From positions 1 through 35,303 of IMG/VR virus record IMGVR_UViG_3300047377_000170: a DNA stretch of 35,303 nt. The stretch is one strand, 5' to 3'. Origin of the DNA: a virus. The position numbers were made by a program, and so were the translations under genes. Of this stretch, positions 3,563 to 35,303 are shown piece by piece. Under the pieces are notes generated by a model. It was not told the origin of the DNA. It did no database searches and worked only from the letters and a program-made list of their open reading frames with translations. Position 1 is the first letter of the stretch. Each line of letters opens with the position of its first letter.

Positions 3563-3976
3563 CTATTCCTTTGTTGTCTCTGTTACTTGCTGAATCATAA
3601 GAATGCGTTTACGGCTCTTACAATCCGCTGCCCAGTCTTCTAGGACACCATCGCGCACGCAACTAATGTGGCCCCTTGTGTGTAACAAAAATGTTCCTGT
3701 TTTTGGCAGTACCCTAGTTGCTGTGGCTAAGGTCTTGGGCCAAGGGTGGTGCATAGATACCCAAGGATTATGCTTATAACCTAAGTCTCTTAGGACTGAG
3801 TAAGTCCACACTTGATTAGTGCCCTTACCTTGCTTGCGCCCTTTCTTATGTAGCAAACTACGGGCCTTGCCGAAGGGTACTCGCGCCGCTACTGATACAG
3901 CAATGACAGCACAATAGCCTTCCTCTCTTGGGTAATACTTTCGCGCTACCCTTGATAGTTCTTCATAAGTGAACAT
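3563..3976 (-). CDS. Papain/C39-like cysteine peptidase candidate, first gene of the leftward block
   Basis: 137 residues, started by an ATG with a strong GGAGG site. A Cys at the start of a helix (GYCAVIAVSVAA, Cys22), a later HISCV (His103) and an Asp two residues after a Leu-Glu turn (Asp114 in LEDW) match the order and spacing of a Cys-His-Asp triad in small papain-fold enzymes (C39, NlpC and related folds). There is no signal peptide or membrane segment, so it would act in the cytoplasm. As the first gene of the early-type block it is placed where host-takeover genes usually lie. The triad is read from sequence; peptidase activity is an inference, and a deamidase or a dead fold is possible. 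Confidence 0.5.
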   Translation of the reverse strand: MFTYEELSRVARKYYPREEGYCAVIAVSVAARVPFGKARSLLHKKGRKQGKGTNQVWTYSVLRDLGYKHNPWVSMHHPWPKTLATATRVLPKTGTFLLHTRGHISCVRDGVLEDWAADCKSRKRILMIQQVTETTKE

Positions 3977-4345: not shown

Positions 4346-4364
4346 AGTTAGACAGTAGTTAGAC
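4346..4364. repeat. Two inverted core copies of the iteron (AGTTAGAC)
   Basis: AGTTAGAC occurs at 4346-4353 and 4357-4364, spaced 11 bp. It is the reverse complement of GTCTAACT, the core of the four 31-bp iterons at 4456-4565. Direct and inverted copies of one core flanking a probable promoter suggest binding sites for a single protein. Confidence 0.6.
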
Positions 4365-4385
4365 ATAGTTATGCCCTTATTGGGT

Positions 4386-4431
4386 ACTATATAGACTCTC
4401 ACACTCTCAAGTTCTCTCAAGTCCACTCAAG
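4386..4431 (-). promoter_or_regulatory. CTTGAG boxes at 10-bp spacing with a TATATAGT element; possible activated leftward promoter
   Basis: On the minus strand CTTGAG occurs at 4426-4431, 4416-4421 and 4406-4411, each with a 4-nt spacer, followed 11 nt further by CTATATAGT (4386-4394). No good -35 sits 17 bp from the -10-like element. The layout fits a promoter that needs an activator bound to helically phased boxes. The hexamer differs by one base from the CTTTAG array at 676-711. Confidence 0.4.
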
Positions 4432-4455
4432 CAAACCATTAGACTACCTCGCGCC

Positions 4456-4565
4456 CCTAAGTCTAACTGTTGTACTCTTTAGCGTACCTAAGTCTAACTG
4501 TTGGGCTTAGTGGTACGCCTAAGTCTAACTGTTGTACTCTGTGGTGCGCCTAAGTCTAACTGTTG
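4456..4565. repeat. Four 17-bp iterons at exact 31-bp period
   Basis: The sequence CCTAAGTCTAACTGTTG is present without change at 4456-4472, 4487-4503, 4518-4534 and 4549-4565. The 14-bp spacers are related to each other (two begin TACTCT). A period of 31 bp is close to three helical turns, so a protein bound to each copy would sit on one face. Arrays like this are usually replication iterons or operators. Confidence 0.85.
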
Positions 4566-4770
4566 GGTCATGGGGCTAACGATAAAGGTACGGGGGGCCG
4601 CTGGCGCTGCTGTTAATTATTGTAGTAGGCACTCAGGTTCTCAAAAGTAAAAATTAGAAAACTACAGTAAAATAATAAAAAAGTAAGTAATTACTAACTT
4701 ATGTAACCTCTTGAATACACAAGAAAAGTTAAAACTTAGATCAAGTCAAGAAAATAACAGTAAAAAGTAC

Positions 4771-4799
4771 TTGACAAATGCTAAAAAATATGCTATAAT
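4771..4799 (+). promoter_or_regulatory. Consensus sigma70 promoter of the structural block (P1)
   Basis: A perfect TTGACA (4771-4776) and a perfect TATAAT (4794-4799) separated by 17 bp, directed at the gene starting at 4837. The spacer and leader are nearly shared with the promoter at 10612-10640: both have TTGACAAAT, an A-run, TATG before the -10, GTATTCTT (4806-4813) and AAGGTAAA before the ATG. Host RNA polymerase should read this strongly. Confidence 0.92.
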
Positions 4800-4836
4800 A
4801 AATAGGTATTCTTAGATAGCTTAAGGTAAATACATT

Positions 4837-5229
4837 ATGGATAATCAAGATGATCCTCCTAAGCGTAAGCGAGGTAGACCTAGGAAAGATGAGGTAGTTA
4901 AGAAAACTACTGGCTCTAGAGGTAAGGTAGGTAGACCTAAAGGTGATGCTTCAATTATCAATGAGTATAAAGCTAGGATGTTAGCTAGTCCTAAGTCTCG
5001 TAGAGTACTAGATAGTATATTTGATGCAGCACTAAATGATGACCATAAGAATCAAGCAGCAGCTTGGAAGCTAGTTATGGATCGTATGCTGCCCTTGAGT
5101 TACTTTGAGAAAGATAGTGCCGGTGGGCGCTCAGCAGTATCCATTACAATCTCAGGTATAGGTAGTGGCTCAGTTGAGACTGATGTTACACCTAATGACC
5201 CTATAGAAGGAGAATACACAGATGTTTAA
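4837..5229 (+). CDS. AT-hook protein, probable small terminase subunit
   Basis: 130 residues. Two AT-hook-like motifs (RKRGRPRK at 10-17 and KVGRPKG at 30-36) predict binding in the AT minor groove. A helical middle (about residues 43-95, with QAAAWKLVMDRMLPLSYFEK) and a flexible acidic tail follow. It is the first gene after promoter P1 and lies two genes upstream of the large terminase, as small terminases do. Such subunits recognise phage DNA and load the large subunit. The assignment is by position and DNA-binding features; a regulator is the alternative. Its stop overlaps the next start by 8 nt. Confidence 0.6.
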   Translation: MDNQDDPPKRKRGRPRKDEVVKKTTGSRGKVGRPKGDASIINEYKARMLASPKSRRVLDSIFDAALNDDHKNQAAAWKLVMDRMLPLSYFEKDSAGGRSAVSITISGIGSGSVETDVTPNDPIEGEYTDV

Positions 5230-5572: not shown

Positions 5573-5715
5573 TGAACACTAACAAAGACTACCTAAAGAC
5601 TTTAGCACAACAAGAAGATCTAAACTGGGACGGTGATCCTGAGTTAGACGTAGAGTATGAGTGTGTAGAGGAAAAAGATCTTGATGAGTATGTAGTCAAG
5701 TGGTTTTATGACTAA
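5572..5715 (+). CDS. Small acidic hypothetical protein, GTG start (47 aa)
   Basis: An open frame starting with GTG that shares one base with the previous stop (TAGTG at 5570-5574) and overlaps the terminase start by 8 nt. The product is strongly acidic (QEEDLNWDGDPELD-type core) and ends in aromatic residues. The overlaps at both ends argue for a real, coupled gene. Function is unknown; the charge would fit a DNA mimic or a terminase partner, which is speculation. Confidence 0.5.
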   Translation: MNTNKDYLKTLAQQEDLNWDGDPELDVEYECVEEKDLDEYVVKWFYD

Positions 5716-6958
5716 TCTTAACATACAACTACTGGATTGGCAAAAGGAAGTTTGGTCATCCGACACCAGATTCAAGATTGTAGCTGCCGGTAGACGTACA
5801 GGTAAGTCCAGACTAGCAGCATGGATGTTGATAGTCAATGCTCTACAGGCAGACAAAGGCCATGTGTTCTATGTAGCTCCAACACAGGGACAGGCCAGAG
5901 ACATCATGTGGCAAACACTATTGGAGCTGGCGCACCCTGTTGTAACCTCTAGTCACATTAACAACCTACAGATTAAACTGGTCAACGGTGCAACCATAAG
6001 CCTTAAAGGTGCCGATAGACCTGAGACCATGCGTGGTGTATCACTAAAGTTCCTAGTGATGGACGAGTACGCAGACATGAAGCCAGAGGTTTTTGAGCAA
6101 ATCCTTAGACCTGCCTTGGCTGACCAAAAGGGCGCTGCGCTGTTTATTGGTACGCCTATGGGACGTAATCACTTCTACGACCTGTACAAATACGCAGAGC
6201 TAGGTGACGATGAGTCCTATGAGTCATGGCACTTTACAAGCTATGACAACGAGTTGTTAGACCCAGACGAGATTGACCTAGCTAAAAAGTCTATGTCATC
6301 CTATGCCTTCCGTCAAGAGTTTATGGCATCCTTTGAAGCCAGAGGCTCAGAGATGTTTAAGGAAGACTGGGTTGTGTTTGATGAGACACCTGACATAGGT
6401 GATTACTACATCAGTATTGACTTGGCTGGCTTTGAGGACGTAAGTAAGAAAAGAACTAAAAACTCTAAGCTGGATGAATCTGCAATTGCAGTAGTGAAGG
6501 TCAATGAAAACGGCTGGCACTTAGAGAACATCATACACGGTAGGTGGGACTTAGCGGAGACAGCTAGGAAGATATTTGAGGCTGTGCGGGACTACAGGCC
6601 CATCAGCGTAGGGATAGAGCGTGGTATCTCTAAGCAGGCTGTCATGTCACCATTGATGGACATGATGAAGCAGTACGGTAGATTCTTTGTTGTAGAAGAA
6701 CTAACCCACGGCAACCGTAAGAAGACAGACAGAATCATGTGGGCACTACAGGGTAGATTTGAGAATGGTCAGATTACCTTGGGCAAGGGTGAGTGGAACA
6801 GTAAGTTTTTAGATCAACTGTTTCAGTTTCCTGACCCATTGACACATGATGACCTTGTGGATGCTTTTGCGTACACAGACCAACTAGCTAAAGTAGCCTA
6901 CAGTTATGACTTTGAGATTGATGATCTTGAGGTCTTGGACGTTGTAACAGGATATTAA
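5708..6958 (+). CDS. terL: Terminase large subunit
   Basis: 416 residues, the ATP-driven DNA packaging motor and headful or site-specific nuclease. The N-terminal ATPase has Walker A GRRTGKS (28-34), Walker B FLVMDE (115-120, Asp119-Glu120) and a coupling-type GTPMG segment (148-152). The C-terminal RNase H-like nuclease has Asp238 (SIDLAG), Glu304 (GIERG) and a HDDLVDA motif with Asp381 and Asp385. It docks on the portal encoded at 7560. The length is on the short side but all catalytic motifs are present. Confidence 0.95.
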   Translation: MTNLNIQLLDWQKEVWSSDTRFKIVAAGRRTGKSRLAAWMLIVNALQADKGHVFYVAPTQGQARDIMWQTLLELAHPVVTSSHINNLQIKLVNGATISLKGADRPETMRGVSLKFLVMDEYADMKPEVFEQILRPALADQKGAALFIGTPMGRNHFYDLYKYAELGDDESYESWHFTSYDNELLDPDEIDLAKKSMSSYAFRQEFMASFEARGSEMFKEDWVVFDETPDIGDYYISIDLAGFEDVSKKRTKNSKLDESAIAVVKVNENGWHLENIIHGRWDLAETARKIFEAVRDYRPISVGIERGISKQAVMSPLMDMMKQYGRFFVVEELTHGNRKKTDRIMWALQGRFENGQITLGKGEWNSKFLDQLFQFPDPLTHDDLVDAFAYTDQLAKVAYSYDFEIDDLEVLDVVTGY

Positions 6959-10139: not shown

Positions 10140-10603
10140 TGCTGATAGAATCAGTTGCAGCCGCTTCAGCCATCTTGTCGAGTTTGAATGGACTCATAAG
10201 GACAGCTAATGAGTCTGGGCAGGGTATCCAGCAACTTATGGGTACTATCAGTGACTTTGGTGAAGCTCTAACAAACTTTGAAGTAGAGCGAAAGTCCAGT
10301 ACATTCAAGCCTCTTAGTCAGAGTGAGATTTTGAAGCTCACCCAGATTAAAAAAAGCTATGAAAGATACTGGAAGGATGTTCACGATCTACTTCTTGTAG
10401 CAGACCCTGAGACTTTAGAAGCCTTCAAAAGAGCTAAGGCAGAACAAGAGCAAGCTAGACAGCAGCACTTGCGCCTTATAGCTCGTAAGAAGAAAGAAAG
10501 AGAAATACTAATGCAGCAAGTTGCAATAGGCTCTCTTGTGTTTGTAGTAGGTGCTGCGGTTGCAATTGGTGCATTATCTATAATAATAAAAACATTTAGT
10601 TAA
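10139..10603 (+). CDS. Membrane-anchored helical protein
   Basis: 154 residues. The N-terminus is mildly hydrophobic (AAASAILSSLNGLI), the middle is a long charged helix with coiled-coil character (about 65-122, rich in Glu, Gln, Arg, Lys), and the C-terminus has one clear membrane segment (about 125-149). Topology of a coiled coil plus a C-terminal anchor could fit a spanin-like or ejection-related protein; neither is demonstrated. It is the last gene before promoter P2, so it ends the first transcription unit. Confidence 0.55.
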   Translation: MLIESVAAASAILSSLNGLIRTANESGQGIQQLMGTISDFGEALTNFEVERKSSTFKPLSQSEILKLTQIKKSYERYWKDVHDLLLVADPETLEAFKRAKAEQEQARQQHLRLIARKKKEREILMQQVAIGSLVFVVGAAVAIGALSIIIKTFS

Positions 10604-10611
10604 AAAAACGC

Positions 10612-10640
10612 TTGACAAATACGAAAAAGTATGATATAAT
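10612..10640 (+). promoter_or_regulatory. Consensus sigma70 promoter (P2) for head-gene cluster
   Basis: Perfect TTGACA (10612-10617), 17-bp spacer, perfect TATAAT (10635-10640). It is near-identical in core and leader to P1 at 4771, including GTATTCTT (10663-10670) and AAGGTAAA before the ATG at 10689. It drives the FmdB-scaffold-capsid genes, giving extra mRNA for abundant virion proteins. Confidence 0.92.
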
Positions 10641-10645
10641 GTATA

Positions 10646-10660
10646 TGTACTTTACGTACA
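10646..10660. promoter_or_regulatory. Operator-like dyad at the P2 start point
   Basis: TGTAC-TTTAC-GTACA is a perfect 5-bp inverted repeat with a 5-bp centre, lying just after the -10, where transcription should start. P1 does not have it. A repressor or regulator site that lets P2 be timed separately is possible. Confidence 0.4.
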
Positions 10661-15850: not shown

Positions 15851-16500
15851 GTACGCAATATCTAACAATAGTAAACGAGGTACTGCGTCGGCTACGTGAA
15901 GACGAAGTATCTGCTGTAGCTAACACAGCTTACTCTAAAATGGTAGGTGACTTTGTAAACGATGCTAAGCGTATTGTAGAAGATTCACATGACTGGTCTA
16001 CGTTACGAACAACTATTGTTGTCCCTACGGTAGCCGATACTACAGAATATAGCTTGACAAACGCTGGAGAACGTGTTAAAATATATAGTGCTATTAACGA
16101 CACATCAAACTTTTTTATGCGTTATGAGTCACCTAACTGGTTTAACAACGCATATTATATCTCCGGTGAAGTCACAGGCACTCCAGACTCCTATACGTTT
16201 AGTGGTATAGACAGTAATGAAGACACTAAGGTACAGGTGTATCCTAAGCCTGACGCAGTGTACTCTTTGCGCTTTGACCTTATTGCAAGAGAAGCTGAGT
16301 TATCTAGCGATACAGACACTACAGTGTTACCTAAGAACGCTATTATCCACAATGCTGTAGCTTTGTTGGCTAGAGAGCGTGGTGAGACAGGCGGTACTAC
16401 TGCACAGGATTATTTCTTAATTGCAGACAAGCATTTATCGGATGCTATTGCAATAGATGCCTACAAGAATCCTGAAGAATTTATCTACAGAGTACCCTAA
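15847..16500 (+). CDS. Tail adaptor / tubular protein A-like (T7 gp11, P22 gp4 type)
   Basis: 217 residues, slightly longer than T7 gp11 (196). The start TIVNEVLRRLRED, then NDAKRIVEDSHDWSTLR and a C-terminal helix after LPKNAIIHNAVALLARERGE, are features of podovirus head-to-tail adaptors. It binds under the portal and connects to the nozzle protein encoded next. The stop overlaps the next start (TAATG). Confidence 0.8.
   Translation: MSTQYLTIVNEVLRRLREDEVSAVANTAYSKMVGDFVNDAKRIVEDSHDWSTLRTTIVVPTVADTTEYSLTNAGERVKIYSAINDTSNFFMRYESPNWFNNAYYISGEVTGTPDSYTFSGIDSNEDTKVQVYPKPDAVYSLRFDLIAREAELSSDTDTTVLPKNAIIHNAVALLARERGETGGTTAQDYFLIADKHLSDAIAIDAYKNPEEFIYRVP
16054..16082 (+). promoter_or_regulatory. 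Possible internal sigma70 promoter inside the tail adaptor gene
   Basis: TTGACA (16054-16059), 17-bp spacer, TAAAAT (16077-16082). The left part (CTTGACAAA) matches P1 and P2. It would serve the nozzle and fibre genes downstream of the capsid terminator. It lies in coding sequence and could be chance. Confidence 0.35.
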
Positions 16501-18032
16501 TGGCTGAGCAACGTCAAAACATATACATAGGTGCTCCCGGCTTCAAAGGTCTTAACACACAGGACTCTCCTGTAACACAAGACCCTGCTTTTGCGTCTAT
16601 TGCTGAAAACGCTGTTATTGACAAGTTCGGCAGGATTGCAGCGCGTAAGGGTCTAAAGAAGCTAACAAGTAGTGCTACACCTTTAGGGTCTAGTATTGGC
16701 ATAGAGACTATCTTTGAGTACATAGACGAAAGTGGCGACAAGGTTGTATTTTCCTCCGGCAACAATAAAGTATTTACAGGGACATCAACACTTACGGACG
16801 TAACTCCTTCTGGCTATACACCTACAGCTAATAACTGGAAAATAGTTAGTCTTAACAACCATGCTTACTTTTTTCAACGTGGTCACGAGCCGCTAATATA
16901 TACTGATGAGTCTGGATCTGGTGTCTTAGATAACATTAGCGACCATTCACATTCCACAGGCACTGCACCTCAAGGTAATGAAGCATGTGCAGCTTTCGGT
17001 AGACTCTGGGTAGCTGATGTTACTGGTAATAAACATACTTTGTTCTTTAGTGATTTACTTAACGGTCACGCTTGGACAGGGGGTAGTTCAGGATCACTAG
17101 ACTTAACTACTGTTTTCCCTGAAGGCTTTGATGAAATAGTGGCTGTACGAGAGTTTAACAACTTTTTAGTTATCTTTTGTAAGAGAAGCATTCTATTGTA
17201 CTCTGGGGCTTCGTCTCCTTCTAGCATGACATTATCTGATGTTATTACAGGCATTGGTTGTATTGCTAGAGACAGCGTACAGGCCATAGGTACAGATTTA
17301 ATTTTTTTATCTGACTCTGGACTGCGTAGCTTAGGTAGAGTTATACAAGAAAAGTCTAACCCTATAGGCAATGTGTCTAAGAATGTAAGAGACACTATGA
17401 TGTTGGCAGTCAACGCTGAAACAAACAACATCAAGTCTGTTTACAGCCCAGAAGAATCTTTTTATCTTTTGTTCTTACCAACGTCCTTAGAAGTTTATGT
17501 GTTTGACATGAGAGGAACACTAGAAGACGGTAGCTACAGAGCAACTATATGGGCAGGCATAACTGTACTTTCTGGCGCTAGACTTGCAGACGGTACTTTG
17601 TATTTAGGCAATGCTAAAGGTATAAACGAGTACGATGAGTTTCTGGATGACACAGATACTTACGTAATGAAGTACTTTACTAACCCTATGTCTTTTGGTG
17701 ATCCTTCCAGAATTAAGATGTTGAAGGAAATATCCTTTACAGTCATAGGAGGATCAGGTAGTCAAGTAGTTGGCAACTGGGCTTATGATTATACGGAAGG
17801 TTACAGTAAACAGGCGTTTACAGTAGCCACAAGTTTAATTGCTGAGTATGGTGTCTCTGAGTACAATGTTAGCACATCAGAATATAGTGCAACTATTGTT
17901 ATTGACGTAGCTAGAGTAAAAGCTACAGGTTCAGGTAAAGTCGCCACTATCGGTATTGAAGCAACAATTAACGGTGGTGCTTTATCCATTCAAGAGTTAA
18001 ACACTGAAGCAATTTTAGGTAGACTAATTTAA
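16500..18032 (+). CDS. Tail nozzle / DNA stabilisation protein (T7 gp12, P22 gp10 type)
   Basis: 510 residues. The N-terminus (KGLNTQDSPVTQDPAFA, then ENAVIDKFGRIAARKG, residues 15-52) is the characteristic start of phage nozzle proteins, which collect outside-facing repeats into a beta-propeller-like fold. The body has repeated short blades such as LWVADV, LVIFCKRSILLYSG and YVFDMRG. It forms the tube through which DNA leaves. TAATG couples it to both neighbours. T7 gp12 is longer (794). Confidence 0.8.
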   Translation: MAEQRQNIYIGAPGFKGLNTQDSPVTQDPAFASIAENAVIDKFGRIAARKGLKKLTSSATPLGSSIGIETIFEYIDESGDKVVFSSGNNKVFTGTSTLTDVTPSGYTPTANNWKIVSLNNHAYFFQRGHEPLIYTDESGSGVLDNISDHSHSTGTAPQGNEACAAFGRLWVADVTGNKHTLFFSDLLNGHAWTGGSSGSLDLTTVFPEGFDEIVAVREFNNFLVIFCKRSILLYSGASSPSSMTLSDVITGIGCIARDSVQAIGTDLIFLSDSGLRSLGRVIQEKSNPIGNVSKNVRDTMMLAVNAETNNIKSVYSPEESFYLLFLPTSLEVYVFDMRGTLEDGSYRATIWAGITVLSGARLADGTLYLGNAKGINEYDEFLDDTDTYVMKYFTNPMSFGDPSRIKMLKEISFTVIGGSGSQVVGNWAYDYTEGYSKQAFTVATSLIAEYGVSEYNVSTSEYSATIVIDVARVKATGSGKVATIGIEATINGGALSIQELNTEAILGRLI

Positions 18033-20377
18033 TGACTAATTATACAAAGACAACGAACTTTGCAACTAAAGACACTCTGCCTTCCGGCAATGCCAATAAG
18101 ATTGTTAAAGGCACAGAGATTGATACAGAGTTTAATAACATTGCAACTGCTGTAGCAACTAAGGCAGACACTGCTGGCCCTACGTTTACTGGTACTGTAA
18201 CTATACCAACTGTAGATCTAAACGGTGGTGCTATAGACGGCACTACTGTAGGTGCATCTACTGCTGCTGCTATTACAGGCACAACTATTGTAGCTAATAC
18301 TAGCATTAACATTGCTGGTGATGGTGCTACTGTAACTGGTATTAAAGATGAAGACGATATGTCTTCTAACAGTGCAACTAAACTAGCTACACAACAGTCA
18401 ATTAAAGCCTATGTAGACTCTCAGGTAACTGCACAAGACTTAGACTTCCAAGCAGACTCCGGTGGTGCTCTAAGCATTGACTTGGACTCAGAGACACTTA
18501 CGTTTACTGGCGGCACTGGTGTAGACACTAGCGGCTCTGGTAACGCTGTTACGTTTGCTATTGACAGCACTGTAGCTACTCTAGCAGGTACACAGACGCT
18601 AACCAATAAGACACTTACCTCGCCTACGCTTAACACACCTACTATTGGTACTTCGTTTACTATTGGCTCCGCTACAATTACTGAAGCAGAACTAGAGATT
18701 CTGGATGGTGCTACAGTAACTACAGCAGAGCTAAATGTACTGGACGGTATCACCAGCACTACTGCTGAACTTAATATCCTTGATGGTGTAACATCTACCG
18801 CAGCAGAGCTAAATATCTTAGATGGTGTAACATCTACTGCTGCTGAACTTAACATTCTCGACGGTGTTACATCTACTGCTGCTGAACTTAACATCCTAGA
18901 TGGTGTCACTAGCACTACAGCAGAGCTAAATATCCTAGATGGTGTCACTAGCACTACAGCAGAGCTAAACATTCTGGATGGCGTTACAGCGACTACGGCA
19001 GAGCTTAACTACGTCGATGGCGTGACATCAGCTATTCAGACGCAGCTAGACGCCAAAGCGCCTTTAGCATCGCCAACGTTTACTGGGACTGTAAACGCTG
19101 CCGCGATGACCGTAGACACCACCACACTGGTTGTGGATGCAACGAATAACAGGGTCGGTATTGGTGACAGCAGCCCGTCAAATACCTTAACGATCACAAA
19201 CGGATCAAGTGGAGCGACGGAAGCCAACGGGGCAATTGTTCCGCTTATGATTGAAAATAGCTCTAGCGCGTACATCAACTTTCTTACCCCTAATAACGCA
19301 AACGCTGGATTTTTGTTTAGTGACCCAGAAGGCAACAATGTTGGTCAAATGCAATATCTGCATGGGTCGAACGCTTTAGTTTTCGCAACAGGCGCTAGTG
19401 AAGCCATGCGCATCCTATCCAATCAGCGTGTTTCAATCGGCGGTACTAGCTCAAATCACCTTCTAAATGTCACAAGTTCAACAACTCCCGCTCTTGAATT
19501 TACTAGGGGGTCAGGCAACGCGACTATCGGTATAGACAACGGAAACTCTATCGCTGTTGGAGGTACTGCTGGTGATCTGGTACTGAGAGCAAGTGGCACT
19601 ACAGGGGTGACGAAGTTCACGGACAGTGGCGGCAACATTACAATGACGCTGACGGAGGCTAATAACGTCGGTATTGGTACTAGCTCGCCAACAGACACGC
19701 TGAACATTTCTAGTAACACTAATCAAATTGGCTTGGACACGGGCGATCAAGCAACGTATGGCACACTTGACGTTGGGCATTTCGCCAATGGTGCGTTTAT
19801 CGGCACTCAAGCTGGGTCGAATGCTGCGTCTAACTTGCTGCGGTTTGGTACTTCTGGCACAGAACGCATGCGCATCGACTCAAGCGGCAACTTGTTGGTG
19901 GGTACTACTAACGCTTCAGGTAGCGGCGCAAGCTCCGGTAAACAAGTAATTCAGTTCGCTGGTGCTGGTGTAAATGGTCTGTACCTTGACGATACAAGAA
20001 CTTCTTCTGGGACTGACAATGCAATAATTTTTGGCAGAGGTGCGACATACTGCGGGAAAATAGAAACCACCACTGCACCAGCAACAAACTACGTCAGTGC
20101 ATCAGACCAACGCCTCAAGGAAAACATTGCAGACGCTGATGACGCAGGAAGCAAGATAGACGCTATCCAAGTTAGAAAATATGATTGGATCGGGGATGGT
20201 ACGCATCAAGAATACGGCTTGGTTGCACAAGAACTACAGCCCATTGCTCCACTTGCTGTTAGTGGCGATGCAGACTCAGAAGACATGATGGGCGTGGACT
20301 ACTCAAAATTAGTACCAATGTTAATCAAAGAAATTCAATCACTACGCGCTCGCGTACAGCAACTGGAGAACAACTAA
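18032..20377 (+). CDS. Tail fibre with 13-residue repeats and C-terminal S74 chaperone
   Basis: 781 residues. N-terminal part (1-210): virion-attachment style, KIVKGTEIDTEFNNIATAV and PTFTGTVTIP. Residues 218-334: nine tandem 13-residue repeats, consensus TAELNILDGVTST. Then beta-rich receptor-binding domain with VGIGDSSP/VGIGTSSP motifs. C-terminus: intramolecular chaperone, SDQRLKENI with Ser691 and Lys696 in the S-x4-K spacing of the S74 catalytic dyad, followed by a helix. Such domains fold the trimer and cut themselves off before Ser691. The base composition rises near 19,000, suggesting a swapped distal part. It binds the host surface. Confidence 0.88.
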   Translation: MTNYTKTTNFATKDTLPSGNANKIVKGTEIDTEFNNIATAVATKADTAGPTFTGTVTIPTVDLNGGAIDGTTVGASTAAAITGTTIVANTSINIAGDGATVTGIKDEDDMSSNSATKLATQQSIKAYVDSQVTAQDLDFQADSGGALSIDLDSETLTFTGGTGVDTSGSGNAVTFAIDSTVATLAGTQTLTNKTLTSPTLNTPTIGTSFTIGSATITEAELEILDGATVTTAELNVLDGITSTTAELNILDGVTSTAAELNILDGVTSTAAELNILDGVTSTAAELNILDGVTSTTAELNILDGVTSTTAELNILDGVTATTAELNYVDGVTSAIQTQLDAKAPLASPTFTGTVNAAAMTVDTTTLVVDATNNRVGIGDSSPSNTLTITNGSSGATEANGAIVPLMIENSSSAYINFLTPNNANAGFLFSDPEGNNVGQMQYLHGSNALVFATGASEAMRILSNQRVSIGGTSSNHLLNVTSSTTPALEFTRGSGNATIGIDNGNSIAVGGTAGDLVLRASGTTGVTKFTDSGGNITMTLTEANNVGIGTSSPTDTLNISSNTNQIGLDTGDQATYGTLDVGHFANGAFIGTQAGSNAASNLLRFGTSGTERMRIDSSGNLLVGTTNASGSGASSGKQVIQFAGAGVNGLYLDDTRTSSGTDNAIIFGRGATYCGKIETTTAPATNYVSASDQRLKENIADADDAGSKIDAIQVRKYDWIGDGTHQEYGLVAQELQPIAPLAVSGDADSEDMMGVDYSKLVPMLIKEIQSLRARVQQLENN
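18683..19033 (+). repeat. Nine tandem 39-bp repeats in the tail fibre gene
   Basis: Nine in-frame units of 39 bp, each coding for 13 residues. Most have diverged at silent sites, but 18893-18930 and 18932-18969 are identical over 38 bp, a recent duplication. The outer units are the most diverged, as usual for arrays that expand and contract in the middle. Confidence 0.9.
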
Positions 20378-30763: not shown

Positions 30764-31610
30764 TTGCCACCTCCGTTAAGTAACGTGGCCCTGTAGAGTA
30801 CAGGAAGGTACGTAGTTCAGGATAGCAAGCATGTTTGAAGTGACAGTAAGAGCAACCTGTAGCCAGCTTCATGTTGCCTGACTTACCATCAGGTACAGGC
30901 TGATGACATAGTTCAGGGGGTTCTTCCTGCTGTACCATATCCTTTATGTGAACGATACGTTCTGTAATGTCCTTCTTTAGAACCTCGTAGACAGGAGCCT
31001 GCTTGTCCTCTAGGTCATACTTCAGGTAAGTCAAGTGACCGTTAGCTTTGTCCATAGCCAGCCAGCCTACCTGTGTCTCGCCTTCAGACTTAGCGTATCC
31101 TTTGATTTGATCTATGTACCCAAAGGGGTCATCAAATGCAAGCGTAGCATCTTTGAACTTCTTGAAGCCATAGCTGCTGGCTGACTTAACGTCAGTCACT
31201 ATGCCATCAATTTTGCAGTCCATGCTACCTGAGATACCTTCTACGGTGGCCTGTGCTTGCTCATGTGTCACTGTATGACCAGCTAGACGCACAAACAGGA
31301 GCAACATTTCCTCAATCAAATGACCGTACATAAACTTTACAAGCGTATGTGGCTGCATTTTCTCCTTCGGCCCCACATTGTTGTAATGGTTCCACAGGTA
31401 TCTGTCGTCCTTGCCTATGTTGGACATACGCAACTTGCGCCCATCAAAGCTACCACGACTGGTAAACTCTTTACGCATAAGGTCTTTACATGCTTCACCA
31501 AAGTCATCTATGATTTGTTCAGCGTCCACTGACCTATCCGGTGTTTTAGTTTTCACCAAAGCATAAATGTCATCTATCAGGGTGTTAGTTGTCTTCATTG
31601 AAGTATCCAT
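30735..31610 (-). CDS. PD-(D/E)XK exonuclease with C-terminal cysteine cluster
   Basis: 291 residues; ATG 31598 is an alternative start. Motifs of the Cas4/RecB-type nuclease core: GHLIEE (His97, Glu100), CKIDGIVTDVKS (Asp135, Asp140, Lys142) and QIKGYA (Gln168). Near the end Cys253, Cys256 and Cys262 (GCSYC...AC), perhaps with Cys235, resemble the Fe-S site of such nucleases. Probably the phage recombination exonuclease in place of T7 gp6. Its neighbours are resolvase and polymerase. Confidence 0.8.
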   Translation of the reverse strand: MDTSMKTTNTLIDDIYALVKTKTPDRSVDAEQIIDDFGEACKDLMRKEFTSRGSFDGRKLRMSNIGKDDRYLWNHYNNVGPKEKMQPHTLVKFMYGHLIEEMLLLFVRLAGHTVTHEQAQATVEGISGSMDCKIDGIVTDVKSASSYGFKKFKDATLAFDDPFGYIDQIKGYAKSEGETQVGWLAMDKANGHLTYLKYDLEDKQAPVYEVLKKDITERIVHIKDMVQQEEPPELCHQPVPDGKSGNMKLATGCSYCHFKHACYPELRTFLYSTGPRYLTEVANEPKVQEIT

Positions 31611-32121
31611 CTAGTATTTCTTTAGCTACTGGGGCAGCGATTACAAACCATTCGTTCTTACTGCCATGAGTTTTCCTCAGTAACTCATGTATCTCACTCT
31701 CTGCTTTACGCCTGTCATCGGTGTCATAAGCCTTTATCAAGATGTAATCCCTGTATGGGCTACCTGTTTGAAAGTGCTTTAGCCTGTCCTCTGCGTCCAC
31801 TGCCATGCCTATCTTAACCCAGCTAGGGTAAGCAGGGCTGTACAAGATGTACACTTGCCCTTGCTTTGAAGTCTTGTAGTTATCTAAAGACTCAAAGGCC
31901 GCATCCCCAAAGGACTTGTATTTTCCGGGCTTATGCAGCGGGTGTGAGATAGGTATATATTTACCATTGACATACATCCTCTGTTTATTTTTTTTGGTTT
32001 TACAGGGAGTGCAAATGAAGATGCTAATTCTTTTATCAGAATCGTGCCAATTTTGATTTGCAACTAAACTTACACCACATTTAATACACTCCTTAGTGTG
32101 TCTCTGCCCAACTACTTCCAA
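31585..32121 (-). CDS. GIY-YIG nuclease (T5orf172-like) with zinc ribbon, TTG start
   Basis: 178 residues from TTG 32121, which has AGGAG 9 nt upstream; a longer frame to 32247 lies wholly inside the polymerase gene. CxxC-x21-CxxC (Cys12, Cys15, Cys37, Cys40) makes a zinc ribbon. The nuclease shows VYILYS (90-95), VKIG (102-105), Arg113 and an AESEIH segment with a closing NEWF, as in the T5orf172 subgroup. Such genes are often free-standing homing endonucleases. It overlaps polymerase by 29 nt and has relatively AT-rich middle sequence, consistent with insertion. Confidence 0.8.
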   Translation of the reverse strand: MEVVGQRHTKECIKCGVSLVANQNWHDSDKRISIFICTPCKTKKNKQRMYVNGKYIPISHPLHKPGKYKSFGDAAFESLDNYKTSKQGQVYILYSPAYPSWVKIGMAVDAEDRLKHFQTGSPYRDYILIKAYDTDDRRKAESEIHELLRKTHGSKNEWFVIAAPVAKEILDGYFNEDN

Positions 32122-33808
32122 CTTTGTACTCTCCTGTGAGCTTACAGTTGAGTCCAAGTTCAATTCCTGCTGCTTCCAAGCAGGATACTGCGAGTCTTCC
32201 GTACTTGTCTGCTTGGTCTGATCTAACTTCTGCTTGTACTTCATCATGGATGTTCCCTACAAAGTAATAATCAAGACCCCATAGTTTAGCATACTCTTGT
32301 AACAAGCACAAGGCTTTTTTCATTACAATTGCACCCGCACTTTGGAGTAAGGTGTTCAAGGCTGCATGTTCTGACCTGATGTGTAGTAGCCTACCATCTA
32401 GTCCATTGATCCAACCCTGTACTGCCTCTTGACTAATTCTTCCTTTAAGATCTGCATATGCTGGGAGATTAGACATAAATCGCTCTCTAAGCAGTCTACC
32501 AGCACCTGCGCCTCCTCCCGCCACCGTACCAAGTTTTGCGTCTCCAGCGCCGTACAGCAGCGCGTAGATGAAAGTTTTTGCTGAATCTCGTGATTCAAGT
32601 CCCGCAAGCTGCTGGTTAGCAGTATGGATGTCTCCTCCAATGACTTCATTCGTATAGTCCTCGTCGTTCATGTAATGGGCCAACATGCGTAGCTCTAGGC
32701 CACTAGCGTCAAAACCCACAAGTTTATAGCCGTCTCTAGCAATCCAGCACTGTCGGCATTCTTTGCCATACGGTGAGTATCCTGCCGGTACTTGGGCTAA
32801 GTTAGGTTTAGAGTGCGTCATCCTGCCGGTTACAGCGCCGTTGGTGTTAACGTAGCCATGCACTCTATCTGTCTCTGGGTCAGCTTCATCAACCCATGAC
32901 TGTACCTGTGCTACACGTTTTTGTAACATCAGGTACTCAGCAATCAATGCTGCCTGTGGTATGTCTTTGACAGTAGACAGCACTGCTTCGTCTACCATTG
33001 GTTGACCTGTAGGCGTTAGCTTGCAAGGCTCCCATCCAAAGTCAATCAAGTACTCGCCTATCTGCTGTCTTGAGCCAAGGTTAAATGGCTTCAATGCTCT
33101 ACGCATAAAGGGAGACCTATCGCCTGACTGTTGTACCTGTTGGTATTCATCGTCGGTGAGTCCAACTTTAGACAAGCTGCCATCTTTTTTAGTCTTCGGC
33201 ACTACCTGCTTAACGTCAACCCACTTGGGCTTGAATACTTTGTGTACTTCGTCCTCGACAACCAACTTACGCTCCTTCAGGGTAGCAAGCAAGTCCATAG
33301 CATGTCGCATGTCCAAGAGCCAGCCATTGCGTATTTGCTCCTGCATGATCCACTGTACTTCATGTTCAAGGTCAATGGACTCTTGCTTGAAGTTGCGTAA
33401 CTCCCATCTTAGACTATAGTATGCCTTAGCTGTCACATGGACATCCTGCACACAGTAGTCAACCATTTCCTTTGACAGGCATGTCCAGTCATCATGGTCT
33501 CCTTTGCCGCCCCATACTGCTAGCTTATGACCACCTTCACGTTGGGGATTAGCAAGTCTTGATAACACCAAGGTGTCCCTGACTCTGCTTTTGTCCACTG
33601 TGATGTCCCATAGCTTATCCAGCACTGGTAGGTCAAAGCCTATCAGGTTGTGCCCTACTACAGGGAAGTTACCTGTGAGAGCCTGTGAGAGACTGTTACG
33701 GTCATAGTGAGCATGTACTACATCGTCCTGCATAGTCACAGCTACCCATATGGTATCAGGGTCAAGACCATTCGTCTCTATGTCAAGGAACATAGGCTTA
33801 TAGCTCAT
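32093..33808 (-). CDS. Family A DNA polymerase (T7-type) with 3'-5' exonuclease
   Basis: 571 residues from ATG 33808, which has GGAGG nine bases upstream; the ATG at 33817 touches that site. Exonuclease: DIE (Asp9, Glu11), FDLPVL (Asp59), YCVQD (Asp122). Polymerase: motif A FDASGLE (Asp367), motif B RDSAKTFIYALLYG (Lys411, Tyr415), motif C HDE (521-523). The residue matching E. coli Phe762 and T7 Tyr526 is Tyr. Shorter than T7 polymerase (704). Replicates the genome with the adjacent primase-helicase. Confidence 0.95.
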   Translation of the reverse strand: MSYKPMFLDIETNGLDPDTIWVAVTMQDDVVHAHYDRNSLSQALTGNFPVVGHNLIGFDLPVLDKLWDITVDKSRVRDTLVLSRLANPQREGGHKLAVWGGKGDHDDWTCLSKEMVDYCVQDVHVTAKAYYSLRWELRNFKQESIDLEHEVQWIMQEQIRNGWLLDMRHAMDLLATLKERKLVVEDEVHKVFKPKWVDVKQVVPKTKKDGSLSKVGLTDDEYQQVQQSGDRSPFMRRALKPFNLGSRQQIGEYLIDFGWEPCKLTPTGQPMVDEAVLSTVKDIPQAALIAEYLMLQKRVAQVQSWVDEADPETDRVHGYVNTNGAVTGRMTHSKPNLAQVPAGYSPYGKECRQCWIARDGYKLVGFDASGLELRMLAHYMNDEDYTNEVIGGDIHTANQQLAGLESRDSAKTFIYALLYGAGDAKLGTVAGGGAGAGRLLRERFMSNLPAYADLKGRISQEAVQGWINGLDGRLLHIRSEHAALNTLLQSAGAIVMKKALCLLQEYAKLWGLDYYFVGNIHDEVQAEVRSDQADKYGRLAVSCLEAAGIELGLNCKLTGEYKVGSSWAETH

Positions 33809-35303
33809 TGACTGCATCCTCCTTTGGCTTGCTAGTCTCTGACATTCTACCAGTAAAGTTATCGTACTTTAGGTAGCAACAAGCCCCTGTCAAACCTGAG
33901 TACCGATTCTTGAGAACACGCACTGTGGTTGTATTGCGTTTCTCAGGGTTATCGTCCTGCTGGTCACGTTCCAAGCCTATCACCATGTCGGATAGCTGAG
34001 CGATAGCCTGTGATCCTCTTAGTTCACTTAGGCTAATCTGCCCACCGTCTTCATGTGCTTTGCCTTGGGTACGCTTTAGGTGTGACACAAGGAACAAGCC
34101 TACGCCTAGCTCCTGCACAAGTGACCGTAGCTTGGTCATAATAGCGTCAATGGCTTTGCGCTCATCGGCGTTATCCTGTGCTGACACAACAATGGACAAG
34201 TGGTCTAGGAAGATCCACTTGCAGTCCAAAGCCTTAGCCATGTACCTGACCCTAGCCAACAGATTGTCCTCGCTGGTGCTACCCCAATGGTCAAACAAGT
34301 AGTACCTGCCTGTGCCTAGAGTTTCTTCCCAAATAGGGAATGCCATGTCAGTGTCTAAGTCTTCCTCAAGGTGCAATGGGCAGTCAGCGTGTACCGACAT
34401 GATTCCCAGTGCTGTCCTTGCTACATCTTCCTCCAAGGCTAGGATTCCAATGTTGTCCTCTGTGGCGTTTAGCAAGTAGTACTCTAACTCCCGTACCATC
34501 TGGCTCTTGCCCATGCCCGACCCTGACGTTATCGTCACTAGCTCATATGGTCTAAAGCCTTTGGTGTAGACGTTCAAGCCCTGCCAAGGGTAAGGTATTG
34601 ACTTTACCTTAATCTTGTTGGTCAAGGCATCCCACGTATCACTACCCTGAACAATGCCGTCAGGTTGATACACCTTGGCATTCCACCATGCGCCGGTAAA
34701 GTCTCGCACCTTGTTGGCTACTAACATTTCGTTAGCGTCCTTCAAGGGTAGCTTTACTATCTTCAGCTTGCTTGGTGAGAACAAGTCCTTGATGTCGTCC
34801 ACGGCCTGATGGCCTGCCTTGTCACCGTCAAAGCAAACCACCACATTGTCGTAACCTTCGAGGAAGTCTAGGTTTTCCTTTATCTCCTTGGCTGCTGATG
34901 ATGCACCGTTACGCAATGAGACCACATCCCACTTACGCTCGAACATTTCAGACACGCTGAGAGCGTCTACCTCGCCTTCTGTGATGGTTATGTACTTACC
35001 CTTACCTTTGCACGTCTGTTGACCAAATAAGCCCACATTGGTGGTTATATCGCCTGTAACGTGAAAGTCTTTGGTTTTCACATGGCGTATCTTTGTGGCC
35101 TTTAGTTCGTCACTGTCGATGCTGTAGTAGGGGTATATGTGCTTTGCTATCTCACCGGCAGCGTTGTACTCCACCATGACCCCGTACTTTCTACACGTCT
35201 CTTGGCTAAGTCTTCTGTCGGGTATAGCTGCAACAACACCTGATGATGTCATATCTTCCAATGGCCTCCTTGGTTGGGGCTGTAGTGTTACTACATTGCC
35301 ATT
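33798..35303 (-). CDS. Primase-helicase (T7 gp4-like), main part; N-terminus at the left end of the window
   Basis: Stops at 33798, runs off the right edge in an open frame, and its start lies at 306 after closing the circle (549 residues). Numbers refer to the closed protein. TOPRIM primase: ITEGE (Glu157) and FDGD (Asp207, Asp209). RecA-like helicase: Walker A SGSGMGKS (Lys314) and Walker B IFLDH (Asp415), then SHLKR and an arginine-rich end of motif 4. It unwinds DNA and makes RNA primers. The apparent TTG start at 35261 is an artefact of the edge. Confidence 0.95.
   Translation of the reverse strand, partial: NGNVVTLQPQPRRPLEDMTSSGVVAAIPDRRLSQETCRKYGVMVEYNAAGEIAKHIYPYYSIDSDELKATKIRHVKTKDFHVTGDITTNVGLFGQQTCKGKGKYITITEGEVDALSVSEMFERKWDVVSLRNGASSAAKEIKENLDFLEGYDNVVVCFDGDKAGHQAVDDIKDLFSPSKLKIVKLPLKDANEMLVANKVRDFTGAWWNAKVYQPDGIVQGSDTWDALTNKIKVKSIPYPWQGLNVYTKGFRPYELVTITSGSGMGKSQMVRELEYYLLNATEDNIGILALEEDVARTALGIMSVHADCPLHLEEDLDTDMAFPIWEETLGTGRYYLFDHWGSTSEDNLLARVRYMAKALDCKWIFLDHLSIVVSAQDNADERKAIDAIMTKLRSLVQELGVGLFLVSHLKRTQGKAHEDGGQISLSELRGSQAIAQLSDMVIGLERDQQDDNPEKRNTTTVRVLKNRYSGLTGACCYLKYDNFTGRMSETSKPKEDAVNEL
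35142..35303. repeat. Right copy of the 162-bp contig-end direct repeat
   Basis: Matches bases 1-162 without gaps, with four substitutions in its first 40 bases. It implies that 35141 is followed by base 1 (or an allele of it) and that the genome length is about 35,141 bp. Confidence 0.9.

Follow-up and report, generated by a model that had tools for sequence, protein, structure and literature searches.

What function is served by four identical short repeats lying in non-coding DNA between the two divergent gene blocks of an uncultured podovirus? The window, that is, the whole stretch of viral DNA analysed here (35,303 nt; IMG/VR record IMGVR_UViG_3300047377_000170), carries the repeat CCTAAGTCTAACTGTTG at 4456–4565. 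Exact matching returned four 17-bp copies at a period of exactly 31 bp, as an earlier sequence-only reading had described, separated by 14-bp spacers that are unlike one another. No further copy was found elsewhere in the window at up to three mismatches; shuffled sequence gave 0.16 ± 0.42 matches on average, and none of 100 shuffles reached four. These are identical direct repeats within the range of about 17–22 bp, and about whole helical turns apart, that characterizes iteron origins. The inverted cores, the AT-rich neighbour with its 20-bp near-palindrome and the location between divergent blocks (the leftward one starting at 3976, the rightward one running from 4837), all noted in that reading, were likewise recovered. 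The elements of the region are:

4346–4364, minus strand: two inverted cores, AGTTAGAC, starting at 4346 and 4357, spaced by 11 bp; they lie immediately outside the predicted terminal repeat
4456–4472, plus strand: repeat unit 1, CCTAAGTCTAACTGTTG, exact match; kept in relatives
4487–4503, plus strand: repeat unit 2, exact match
4518–4534, plus strand: repeat unit 3, exact match
4549–4565, plus strand: repeat unit 4, exact match; its start lies 288 bp upstream of the ATG at 4837
4588–4604, plus strand: G-rich element GTACGGGGGGCCGCTGG, retained by most array types
4626–4770, unstranded: AT-rich (74%) non-coding stretch, unusually conserved
4681–4700: near-palindrome AAGTAAGTAATTACTAACTT inside the AT-rich stretch, kept in relatives
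4771–4799, plus strand: perfect sigma-70 promoter (TTGACA, 17 bp, TATAAT, with TG) serving the rightward block, conserved

By composition and conservation, the stretch at 4626–4770 is the adjoining AT-rich neighbour that an iteron origin calls for. The inverted pair is real, though not universal in the clade: its exact 11-bp spacing recurs at 11 of the 45 clade loci, the window counted in. Several relatives have at least four G runs in the homologue of 4588–4604, which may be quadruplex-forming. A search of Rfam, bearing on a reading of the site as an RNA element, gave no match. A second strong promoter at 10603–10649 is 79% identical over 47 bp to 4762–4808, the two having a common extended form, TTGACAAAT...TATGNTATAAT.

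The genes that matter to the argument flank the array on both sides:

4837–5229, plus strand: AT-hook protein, 130 aa, small-terminase candidate, adjoining the large terminase
5708–6958, plus strand: terminase large subunit (phrog_2, E 8e-43)
32093–33817, minus strand: family A DNA polymerase, leftward block (phrog_17, E 1e-141)
33798–35261, minus strand: T7-type primase-helicase, leftward block (phrog_239, E 8e-170)

The contig ends overlap by about 160 bp (2–162 with 35143–35303) at 98%, so that the window can be drawn as a circle of about 35.14 kb; an overlap of 98% rather than 100% looks as if assembly had joined two strains. On this circle the rightward block (4837–25638) carries terminase, portal and capsid genes, and the leftward block (25672 through the ends to 3976) encodes exonuclease, endonuclease and ribonucleotide reductase together with the primase-helicase and family A polymerase, the pair that marks a T7-type replisome. 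Among window ORFs of at least 200 aa, Pfam and PHROGs searches returned no T7-type single-subunit RNA polymerase, and the phage is therefore not filed as a member of the Autographiviridae. T7 starts replication by RNA-polymerase priming; given the same result, a start in the T7 style looks unavailable here. Cumulative GC skew has its minimum in windows around 3.5–4.5 kb and its maximum near 25.6 kb, but this is no independent evidence for an origin, because skew follows gene direction and all genes point away from the site. The AT-hook protein has weak DUF5681 similarity in 7 of 44 relatives; its AF2 model consists of helices only, at a confidence too low for a fold search, and its comparison with cultured phages gave no match. 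A PDB sequence search gave nothing. The ORF at 31585–32247, which encodes a T5orf172/MUG113 nuclease-like domain and is kept in most of the iteron clade, shares about 150 bp with the polymerase gene, read in a different frame.

A lack of any repeats here in related phages would have counted against the sequence-only reading, and a search of such phages, the check it proposed, showed otherwise: this array or another stands at the same place in most relatives. IMG/VR scans with the exact motif (37 stretches) and with a two-copy pattern (47 stretches, the sets overlapping; L001–L037 and L042–L057 combined) gave about 50 stretches with the CCTAAGTCTAACTGTTG array, in 2–6 copies mostly 29–32 bp apart; in some arrays one copy is 37 or 43 bp off, or there is a gap. 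Wherever neighbouring genes are present, they match those of the window. The last copy starts 284–292 bp before the AT-hook gene in nearly all of these relatives (the exceptions being L025, at 263, and L051, at 311), and this distance between the array and the terminase-like gene stays nearly fixed while the leftward genes vary. In an alignment of 39 different upstream regions, the array, the AT-rich stretch, the promoter, parts of the G-rich element and the right boundary TTATTGTAGTAGG are conserved, and sequence left of about 4380 is variable. Outside viruses, a scan of the GTDB genome collection for the array gave one hit, an unrelated cyanobacterial simple repeat, and the idea that a host oriC carries the same motif was dropped on this result; plasmid iterons were dropped after 0 matches in 72,556 plasmid records. 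Since no collection genome and no plasmid record has the array, its reader may be phage-encoded, or the host may be unsequenced. When cultured-phage DNA was searched with the window's own site, the promoter was the sole match.

Many wider relatives carry perfect DnaA boxes (typically CCTGTGGATAACTT) at the same place, in 2–11 copies, in one orientation and helically phased, with spacing modes of 11, 22 and 33. The distant relatives were found through the AT-hook protein family, at 63–88% identity in that protein. Among 63 relatives outside the window clade, picked by the AT-hook gene and independently of the array, 16 have at least two perfect boxes at this place; conversely, a gene-blind IMG/VR scan for three spaced DnaA boxes gave at least 120 stretches, at least 51 of which carry the AT-hook gene, generally right beside the boxes. 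Over 106 distinct loci, a set partly chosen for boxes, 183 perfect plus-strand boxes were counted against 0.27 expected per strand. Other relatives have TGCCAAC-type or CTAATG-type repeats here, and 27 of the 106 loci, classed as 'other', have no recognisable array of these types, so that an array is not essential in the family. The tree of the AT-hook protein is built on few columns and many of its forks are weak; in it, CCTAAGTCTAACTGTTG is confined to one or two neighbouring groups, whereas DnaA boxes turn up across many lineages. Near the window array there is no exact DnaA box (TTATCCACA); the whole window has one, at 16343. Spaced perfect DnaA boxes were also seen in L140. The SP6-like look of ACTATAGAAG in L054 was set aside, the window having no phage RNA polymerase gene.

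Where on the genome the array lies is indicated by relatives whose contigs end at it. One relative (G005) has a contig that begins and ends with the same exact 210-bp repeat; this encloses the iterons, runs from ACTATAGAAGG to TTATTGTAG, and has both of its cuts 3 nt past TTATTG. A distant relative (G008), with a primase 50% identical, has an exact 221-bp terminal repeat enclosing DnaA boxes, and the right ends of the two are homologous by eye, lying about 17 nt before AAAAG in both. Homologous elements can be placed in the window:

4377–4395, plus strand: left boundary element, TTATTGGGT and ACTATATAGA with the boundary between them; homologue of the left end of G005
4386–4625, unstranded: direct terminal repeat of 240 bp around the array, predicted by comparison with G005
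4617–4629, plus strand: right boundary element, TTATTGTAG followed across the boundary by TAGG, strongly conserved; homologue of the right end of G005

By this homology, the window array very probably sits inside a direct terminal repeat at 4386–4625. The window contig ends at neither coordinate, its own ends overlapping elsewhere. A crude comparison of own with cross pairings, looking for direct repeats between the two boundaries, yielded no more than a weak excess (12.35 versus 11.91 of 17), with clear cases in L104, L125, L129, L137 and L200. A pile-up of contig ends at the array was considered and abandoned, because most contigs retrieved with the terminase-like gene or with the primase run through it. 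At one contig end of a further relative (G007; L015 / L286–L287), about 45 nt of foreign palindromic low-complexity sequence, ATCTCTCTC...GAGAGAGAT, joins exactly at the left boundary element.

The same arrangement occurs in cultured T7-like phages. Shigella phage VB_Ship_A7 (NC_048180), met among the DnaA-array contigs, has an exact 177-bp terminal repeat with four perfect DnaA boxes; used as a query, this repeat led to phiEap-1 (195-bp exact direct terminal repeat, five perfect boxes), Klebsiella phage Kp7 (238 bp, exact, five boxes) and ZK1 (292 bp, exact, six boxes). T7 has no DnaA box at its ends; it has CCTAAAG at 17, 41 and 60 in its 160-bp repeat and a further run from 175 to 332 beside it, and the ends of T3 have near-copies of CCTAAAG in a similar way. 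Terminal-repeat arrays are thus a layout shared more widely, with motifs that differ. The sequence-only reading, which noted that T7-like phages are not known for iteron origins, missed that such phages do have repeat arrays within and next to their terminal repeats, of CCTAAAG in T7 and of DnaA boxes in phiEap-1, Kp7, ZK1 and A7. These four Autographiviridae share with the window helically spaced, one-orientation repeats in a podovirus terminal repeat, whereas the window motif is not a DnaA box, no T7-type RNA polymerase accompanies it and its terminal repeat is predicted by homology. T7 and T3 share short repeats at the genome end and a T7-type replisome, but their units are of 7 bp, about 13 bp apart beside the repeat, as against 17 bp and 31 bp here, and the genes of T7 all run one way whereas the window has divergent blocks. 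The A7 repeat also matched the large Lactococcus phages WRP3 and AM1–AM12, at non-coding places.

Comparison of close relatives suggests how the motifs change. Three pairs with AT-hook proteins 93–96% identical have different arrays (L107/L117, L116/L108 and L123/L120). In the last of these, where the proteins are 95% identical, L123 has four DnaA boxes and L120 none; between the boundary elements the two carry an unrelated block (25–55% identity), and outside it identity is about 70–98%. L116 and L108 resemble each other on the right side. The array thus appears to change as a block, as if a cassette had been swapped, and the AT-hook protein is unlikely to be its reader, because the array is exchanged while that protein stays 93–96% identical. 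The window carries one form of an exchangeable array that sits at the genome ends of podoviruses; for the mechanism the odds are about even.

We propose that the array is a swapped-in protein-binding cassette in the terminal repeat that acts in replication initiation, a reading to which we give a probability of about 0.5. Inside the direct terminal repeat of this uncultured podovirus, with its T7-type replisome, the cassette would bind a protein. In the DnaA-box relatives this would presumably be the host initiator DnaA; in the window lineage CCTAAGTCTAACTGTTG would replace the boxes, and the reader would be another protein, of the phage or of the host. On the helically spaced sites the reader could assemble into a complex that adjoins the G-rich and AT-rich stretch (4588–4770) and helps to open it, so that the genome, incoming or concatemeric, can be replicated. 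A replication role is favoured because of the DnaA boxes in relatives, their single orientation and helical spacing, and the conserved AT-rich neighbour. The position and homology of the array are well supported, and from these comparisons we infer the replication-initiation function, the binding of DnaA and, for the window, a reader other than DnaA. The sequence-only reading had offered a replication origin or a regulator-bound switch between the two blocks: the first is partly upheld, the DnaA boxes of relatives favouring replication over such a switch.

A start right at one end of a linear genome would be unusual, which counts against an origin. No cognate initiator gene was recognised by Pfam or PHROGs among the proteins scanned for known domains. 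A clade-specific initiator was sought in the gene content of 18 genomes, which gave small proteins only, none convincing; those restricted to the iteron clade include ORFs 950–1189 and 1186–1356. DnaA need not itself be the initiator, since the T7-like phages that carry its boxes have replication proteins of their own. Bacterial oriC and DnaA-dependent plasmid and phage origins resemble the DnaA-type relatives in having oriented boxes adjoining an AT-rich stretch, and differ from the window in motif, in its place at a genome end and in that no initiator or helicase-loader gene was seen there. The origin of lambda places four short direct repeats beside an AT-rich stretch, a layout that the window shares with it and with iteron plasmids; the window repeats, however, lie outside any initiator gene, with none adjacent, and found no counterpart among the plasmid records.

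More tentatively, and with less than even confidence, the terminal repeats of podoviruses with a T7-type replisome may be a cassette slot for initiator-binding arrays, with DnaA boxes in many and other motifs and proteins here and in T7 and T3. To our knowledge, short-repeat arrays at T7-like genome ends have no settled role, and in a partial coverage of the literature (titles, abstracts and term counts) no paper linking DnaA boxes to phage terminal repeats was found. DnaA boxes at podovirus ends, with exchange of the block, link the genome ends to the host replication initiator. If the cassette-slot reading were true, it would give these arrays a function, and one open to direct test in phages that can be grown, since cultured phages carry terminal repeats with DnaA boxes.

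The main rival, because of the array's place, is a packaging or concatemer-processing signal, which we hold to be somewhat unlikely. The array would show terminase where the genome ends, in the manner of the R sites in lambda cosB or possibly of the CCTAAAG arrays around the T7 ends, and would aid concatemer cutting or duplication of the terminal repeat. Its location in or beside the terminal repeat and next to the terminase genes fits such a role, as does the occurrence of CCTAAAG both inside and beside the 160-bp repeat of T7, and in lambda too the cosB repeats lie beside terminase genes at the genome end. Here, however, arrays swap with no change in the small-terminase candidate, which makes that protein an unlikely reader and sets the locus apart from cosB; moreover, a terminase has no reason to prefer the perfect DnaA box found in many lineages. 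A packaging complex assisted by DnaA, as IHF assists in lambda, is conceivable.

A different objection concerns place rather than function and is compatible with any other reading: the terminal repeats of G005 and G008 might be assembly artefacts, and the array might lie in unremarkable intergenic DNA of a genome that is circularly permuted. The window contig does end elsewhere, most contigs read through the site, and repeats and strain variation break assemblies, as where G019 breaks in the array with an overlap of the 127-base k size. We nonetheless consider artefacts unlikely, given that assemblers do not usually work with a k of 210 or 221 bp, that two distant phages have homologous right ends, that both G005 ends fall 3 nt past TTATTG and that the arrays of four cultured phages lie inside exact terminal repeats.

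Transcription control, by a regulator that binds the array and switches or represses the divergent blocks, is improbable. The array does lie between those blocks, a perfect promoter stands at 4771–4799, and in some members of the clade the AGTTAGAC inverted cores are turned towards the leftward block; but the end of the array is 205 bp upstream of the –35 box with the conserved AT-rich stretch between, the motif turns over while the promoter stays, a poor fit to a dedicated operator, and no gene for a regulator was found. Host take-over or end protection, with arrays titrating DnaA or another host protein or coating the incoming ends against nucleases, is just as doubtful: perfect DnaA boxes at both linear-genome ends of cultured T7-like phages would suit it, but with so few boxes in each genome, titration of DnaA would have to await replication, and the conserved AT-rich neighbour would be left unexplained.

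The window holds a second set of direct repeats, of a different kind: seven 39-bp units at 18634–19029, within a tail-fibre-like ORF (18032–20377) whose C-terminal end is an endosialidase chaperone (S74) domain.
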